Shown here: one piece after another, positions 4,206 through 4,280 of the stretch
Position numbering within the stretch: the first letter of the stretch is position 1
Layout: every line of letters starts with the position of its first letter
Source: a virus
Virus record (IMG/VR): IMGVR_UViG_3300046522_000439
Location: 1-27,268 of that record
Direction: 5' to 3' (one strand)
DNA length: 27,268 bases
The notes under the pieces: model-generated
Told to the model about the DNA's origin: nothing
The model's input: only the letters and a program-made list of their open reading frames with translations
Database searches by the model: none
Position numbers and translations under genes: made by a program

Positions 4206-4245
4206 GCCGGCTTAGCTCAGTTGGTAGAGCACCTGATTTGTAATC
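4206..4245 (+). tRNA. tRNA-Thr(UGU), 5' part only, truncated at prophage junction
   Basis: The sequence from the acceptor 5' strand (GCCGGCT) through the D-arm (TAGCTCAGTTGGTAGAGC) to the anticodon stem-loop CCTGA-TTTGTAA-TC is that of a bacterial tRNA-Thr with anticodon TGT at 4239-4241. After 4245 the expected TCAGG anticodon stem, variable loop, GTTCGA T-loop and closing AGCCGGC are absent. The next bases are phage-like and lead into a terminator hairpin and the integrase gene. This is therefore a split tRNA gene at an integration junction, not a working tRNA. The 3' half should lie at the other end of the prophage, beyond this window. Confidence 0.85.
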
Positions 4246-4253
4246 GGTCAGGT
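4231..4253. other. attL core: integrase site in the tRNA-Thr anticodon loop
   Basis: ACCTGA (4231-4236) and TCAGGT (4248-4253) form a 6-bp inverted repeat around TTTGTAATCGG. In an intact tRNA-Thr the anticodon stem supplies the matching CCTGA/TCAGG arms around the 7-nt TTTGTAA loop. This is the arrangement expected of core-type binding sites flanking a tyrosine-recombinase crossover. The left arm is host tRNA and the right arm is phage. The exact crossover point is inferred to lie within the TTTGTAATC stretch. Confidence 0.65.
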
Positions 4254-4256
4254 TTT

Positions 4257-4276
4257 GGCGGAAAACCGCCGTTTTT
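4257..4276 (+). terminator. Rho-independent terminator just inside the prophage
   Basis: GGCGG (4257-4261), AAAA loop and CCGCC (4266-4270) are followed by GTTTTT on the + strand. It reads in the direction of the tRNA, 12 nt past the break, and would stop transcription entering the prophage from the host side. On the opposite strand the stem is followed by AAAACC, so it is not an obvious terminator for the integrase transcript. An alternative GGTTTT/AAAACC pairing (4251-4267) competes with it. Confidence 0.6.
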
Positions 4277-4280
4277 CAGA

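Follow-up and report, generated by a model that had tools for sequence, protein, structure and literature searches.

As a rule, elements that integrate into tRNA genes carry the 3' half of their target and the host promoter is kept. Of the 3919 islands in tRNA genes compiled by Islander (PMC4383910), 3760 have a displaced 3' fragment and 159 a 5' fragment, and according to a review, loss of the original promoter is very exceptional among bacterial tRNAs that integration has rebuilt. In the sphingomonad prophages described here, the rule is reversed consistently over three tRNAs. Our analysis started from a window of 27,268 bases, IMG/VR provirus record IMGVR_UViG_3300046522_000439 with its Novosphingobium flank, for which the original prediction left two outcomes: either the phage brings its own 5' half, probably with a promoter, to a split tRNA-Thr(UGU) gene at attR, or it destroys this tRNA copy, with the former held to be more likely. 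We consider it highly probable that the phage integrates into the tRNA gene, supplies a 5' half together with a promoter-like element and rebuilds the tRNA at attR. That such an arrangement is unusual, as had been claimed, agrees with the Islander counts and with the review, in which expression from an element-borne promoter in bacteria is seldom met. The prophages share a tyrosine integrase, a tRNA site and a rebuilt tRNA with the standard 3'-half prophages but are their mirror image, since those keep the host promoter whereas here it is displaced. Consistent with this, attL has a 5' half alone and the intact tRNA of seven relatives lies at the opposite end.

The closest described class are the islands with 5' tDNA fragments in Islander (PMC4383910), in which the 5' half of the element and the 3' half of the host form an intact tRNA and a 5' fragment is found at the other end. 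Seven relatives of the window's phage show both of these ends and the window shows the fragment end. Unlike the Islander entry, which is a count only, one integrase family is seen here with three tRNA targets and a promoter-like element in the attP arm. The pTN3-like integrases of Thermococcales (PMC8371274, PMC5495485) likewise use a tRNA 5' half as attB and separate the rebuilt tRNA, which is expressed from the integrase promoter, from its original promoter. However, these enzymes are archaeal, and integration at an att site within their own gene splits it; here the integrase gene stays whole, the att site lies 35 nt outside the 393-aa frame and the arm away from the integrase carries the promoter-like element. 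Islands at the 5' end of dusA (PMC4482086) also integrate near the 5' end of a gene, with putative -10 and -35 regions upstream before and after integration, but dusA is protein-coding and the target here is a tRNA. Finally, tRNA-dependent lysogeny (PMC10865867) resembles our case in that the target is an essential tRNA with one gene copy, for which the cell then relies on promoter-bearing phage DNA. There, however, a whole phage tRNA gene complements the loss and none is rebuilt at the att site, which is not what we find here. So far as we have checked, the prophages thus belong to a known, rare class, and what is new is its fixation across an integrase family and the promoter-like element in attP.

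The integrase end in the window

The first 4.2 kb of the window are host DNA with an MgsA-like gene, one gene without Pfam match and a gene of the DUF885 family (2381..4126, plus strand; PF05960, 2.4e-83), which lies 5' of the tRNA, flanks the integration site and is 95% identical to its counterpart in Novosphingobium sp. AP12. Beyond this flank follows a contractile-tailed prophage with tail sheath, tail and baseplate proteins and a primase, and the record stops in the tail region. A comparison with uninfected relatives, as had been proposed, showed the locus uninterrupted in about 20 genomes of Novosphingobium and other sphingomonads, where the DUF885 gene is followed by an intact tRNA-Thr(UGU). 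The DUF885 gene adjoins the site in the host of the window; in G044 and G075, two Novosphingobium genomes with related proviruses, no DNA match to it was found at this position.

In the window, positions 4206..4245 (plus strand) are identical to nucleotides 1-40 of the intact tRNA-Thr(UGU) of relatives and constitute an orphan 5' half that forms the attL core. The match ends with ...CCTGA TTTGTAA TC (tRNA nt 40) and the sequences diverge from there, which confirms that the host tRNA stops at 4245. In the window, ARAGORN made no tRNA call, and the score of the tRNA covariance model, 25.9 bits, is under the cut-off of 29. The tRNA gene is indeed split, with a small correction to the first description: identity extends 2 nt past the anticodon loop into the 3' strand of the stem. 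In G044 attL and attR are identical up to the loop and no further (nt 38), and we infer that the crossover takes place in the anticodon loop.

The tyrosine integrase of 393 aa (4281..5462, minus strand; PF00589, 2.1e-22; phrog_1, 9.6e-54) points with its 3' end toward the att site. It adjoins the tRNA half as predicted, at a distance of 35 nt to its stop codon rather than 36 nt. A PF00589 integrase this close to a tRNA half, with the att core inside a tRNA gene that is intact in empty sites, is what characterizes tRNA-targeting prophages with a tyrosine integrase. A small ORF resembling excisionases or regulators (5216..5536, minus strand; phrog_66, 1.1e-7) overlaps the start of the integrase gene. 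The 3' end of the integrase gene is overlapped by two copies of a putative arm-type repeat, TGTG[AC]C (4283..4305, plus strand). In the members counted, this motif occurs in 2-3 copies on the integrase side and in 3-4 copies on the far arm, all on one strand, where about 0.05 copies per 150 nt and strand are expected. The repeats could be the arm-type sites to which the integrase binds.

Upstream of the orphan half, positions 4142..4180 (plus strand) hold the block TTTACCGGCGCCCCCCGCTCGCGGTAAGGGCGCCGG; most empty sites in relatives have it as well, 5' of an intact tRNA-Thr. This block is probably the native promoter region of the host tRNA-Thr and would now drive the orphan half. Downstream of the host-type upstream block GGTAAGGGCGCC, the transcript of tRNA-Thr(UGU) is predicted to start at a short distance in a strain without the prophage. 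Directly 3' of the orphan half, a hairpin followed by a T tract (4256..4276, plus strand) is a probable intrinsic terminator that would keep transcription of the orphan half from continuing antisense into the integrase gene. A hairpin with T tract is present at this place in all three members that target tRNA-Thr(UGU), strong in two and moderate in G044, and the total of terminator-like matches across a scan of positions 4000-5600 was not above the shuffle mean. As a feature of the whole family, a terminator after the orphan half was rejected: it is weak or absent in the members that target tRNA-Arg, with no consistent version among them.

Both ends of related proviruses

In addition to the window, we found ten further att sites beside related integrases, which are 38-90% identical. 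Beside the integrase, all ten have the tRNA 5' half only, derived from tRNA-Thr(UGU), tRNA-Arg(UCU) or tRNA-Arg(CCU). In G044 and G075 the integrases are 89% identical to that of the window and the target is the same tRNA-Thr(UGU); the integrase end has nothing but the 5' half of the gene, and at the far end, 42.6 kb away in G044 and 24.7 kb away in G075, the tRNA-Thr(UGU) is intact. Halves of tRNA-Arg(UCU) (G050, G061, G068 and G311) and of tRNA-Arg(CCU) (G542, G457, G555 and the IMG/VR contig G004) adjoin integrases with 38-58% identity. Both ends are on one contig in seven proviruses, and each of the seven has an intact tRNA composed of phage 5' half and host 3' half at the far end; five of them (G068, G311, G542, G457 and G555) carry a rebuilt tRNA-Arg at attR. 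The prediction of a phage 5' half, probably with a promoter, at attR is thus supported by G044, G075 and these five relatives, which also have the promoter-like element upstream. G004 appears to be attP itself, as arm repeats flank its tRNA half on both sides. In G457 an element of 5 kb (G457:C10:879642-884627) combines an integrase of this type with a rebuilt tRNA-Arg(CCU); it could be a satellite of very small size or the remnant of a deletion.

In six of seven proviruses, all but G044, attL and attR become identical 0-5 nt before tRNA nucleotide 1, and the identity ends at nucleotides 39-42 except for the end at the loop in G044. Judged by sequence, the relatives hence combine an orphan half at attL and an intact tRNA at attR with a tRNA half that is conserved to nucleotide 1. 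Recombination should need the anticodon region only, and the maintenance of nucleotides 1-30 is best explained by the requirement for a working tRNA. In G542, the orphan half has a substitution at nucleotide 9 that is absent from the rebuilt copy. In a tree of the integrases, the members that target tRNA-Thr form one well supported group and those that target tRNA-Arg(UCU) are grouped with less firm support; two changes suffice to explain the three target labels. Since the tree groups by target, the tRNA target has changed while the arrangement with the 5' half stayed.

The window stops inside the phage, and its own attR, beyond the end of the record, presumably has the structure found in the relatives. 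We searched IMG/VR with the exact attL core and with the arm of the phage that bears the putative promoter; neither had a match, and this attR was not recovered. The related IMG/VR records G001-G003, which are cut off at the end of a gene or within the att region, have no tRNA match. Provirus records should therefore be read with caution, as these three are trimmed such that neither a tRNA half nor a rebuilt tRNA is left. At the level of the class, no integrase relative was found at 1e-40 among 385 genomes in a search run without positive control. The integrase of Microcystis phage Mvi-Yong1342-1 (PP496355.1 20172-21272) shares 44% identity with the sphingomonad family, and this phage may derive from a companion bacterium of the culture. 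No tRNA 5' half was found with this more distant relative, which limits the 5'-half rule to the members tested.

The putative promoter-side arm at attR

In the arm that reaches the rebuilt tRNA, each of the seven rebuilt tRNAs is preceded by the motif TTGAC[AG]-N17-TA, which begins some 50-60 nt 5' of the tRNA and has the arm repeats on one side and the tRNA half on the other. Within the phage interior it occurs once in 372,536 strand-nt, a rate that serves as a background figure and not as an independent test because the arms that drew attention to the motif are also the seven in which it was then counted. We also built a model of host tRNA promoters from 27 tRNA upstream regions of G075, which consists of a -35 element TTG(A/C)C and a -10 element containing TA, mostly with a spacing of 17 nt. 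With this model, the highest scores of the seven arms lie above those of 97-99.4% of control windows. They range from 6.2 to 7.9, below the median of 10.8 for host tRNAs, and in G044 and G075 the conserved TTGACG element is not the top-scoring site. The arm of the attP-like contig G004 is unremarkable, with equal scores in 20% of control windows. The -10 boxes of the arms are degenerate and weak by the standards of E. coli. The element is a putative promoter.

In G075, host-type sequence precedes the orphan half and a different, phage-type sequence precedes the intact tRNA at attR. This phage-type upstream sequence is present in only 3 of 196 Novosphingobium genomes, namely twice in G044 and once each in G075 and G049. 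Of the two copies in G044 (G044:C72:109630-109729 and 152182-152281), one is at attL, where the 62 nt 5' of the orphan half are identical to the promoter-side arm of attR, from CTTGACGG on. A promoter of the native tRNA-Thr type was sought near attL of G044 and none was found. The upstream region of this attL could result from gene conversion between attL and attR, or it could be the scar of an earlier prophage that left its promoter in the host.

Consequences for the host tRNA

Counting tRNA-Thr(UGU) genes, as the original prediction had proposed, gave a single full-length match per genome in all 15 genomes, the lysogens G044 and G075 among them; other full-length hits of the query are about 82-86% identical. 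G075 has separate threonine tRNAs with the anticodons CGU and GGU. ACA codons are read by tRNA-Thr(UGU). From the single full-length match per genome and the established decoding rules, it follows that this tRNA is very probably essential for ACA codons. As a consequence of its single copy, the only tRNA-Thr(UGU) of the lysogens G044 and G075 depends on phage DNA upstream.

These observations bear on the ways in which the truncated gene of the window could be understood. The missing 3' half in the window is all that speaks for the destruction of a dispensable tRNA copy, which was seen in no relative and is extremely improbable given one full-length match per genome in 15 genomes and a rebuilt tRNA in every relative with two ends. 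Destruction of the host gene could also be compensated by a complete replacement tRNA gene elsewhere in the phage genome, as is known for tRNA-dependent lysogeny in actinobacteriophages, whose att sites in tRNA genes have a short core. This is very improbable here: the shared core measures about 40 nt as compared to about 10, the window contains no tRNA gene and the proviruses in G044 and G075 have only the one rebuilt at attR. Misassembly or a chimera at 4245, which the original prediction had named as what could refute it, might be considered for a lone virus record that shows one end of the prophage only. It is hardly credible, as the independent genome G075 has a nearly identical junction and nine further integrase-linked att sites have the same architecture.

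An unlikely, though more serious, alternative accepts the supply of a 5' half but has the rebuilt tRNA expressed by read-through from a phage gene, with no dedicated promoter in the attP arm. The degenerate -10 boxes and the modest scores of the arms under the host model would agree with read-through, whereas the conserved place of TTGAC[AG]-N17-TA in all seven arms and its spacing, as in most host tRNA promoters, argue for a promoter of the arm itself. According to the preferred reading, in which the phage supplies a 5' half with a promoter-like element, integration would cut off the host 5' half and its promoter, which would then lie as a dead end next to the integrase gene. The intact tRNA would arise at attR, beyond the window, where the 5' half of the phage meets the 3' half of the host, and the only tRNA-Thr(UGU) of the infected cell would then probably be expressed from viral DNA.

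We tentatively raise the possibility, somewhat less probable than even, that one attP arm of these sphingomonad phages holds a true tRNA promoter, flanked by the arm sites and the core, which would place tRNA-Thr(UGU) or tRNA-Arg of the lysogen under DNA owned by the phage. Expression could then be modulated by binding of integrase or excisionase, and the promoter may stay in the host after phage loss or gene conversion, as the upstream region of attL in G044 suggests. The reversed arrangement puts tRNA-Thr(UGU), single-copy in the genomes tested, behind phage DNA and allows a direct test of whether a prophage controls the level of a host tRNA. A further occurrence of the phage promoter-side arm with a tRNA-Thr 5' half was observed in G049 (G049:C1:1252708-1252790), with no related integrase nearby and distant from the intact native tRNA-Thr at 4713532. 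It could represent a relic or an element that uses another integrase.
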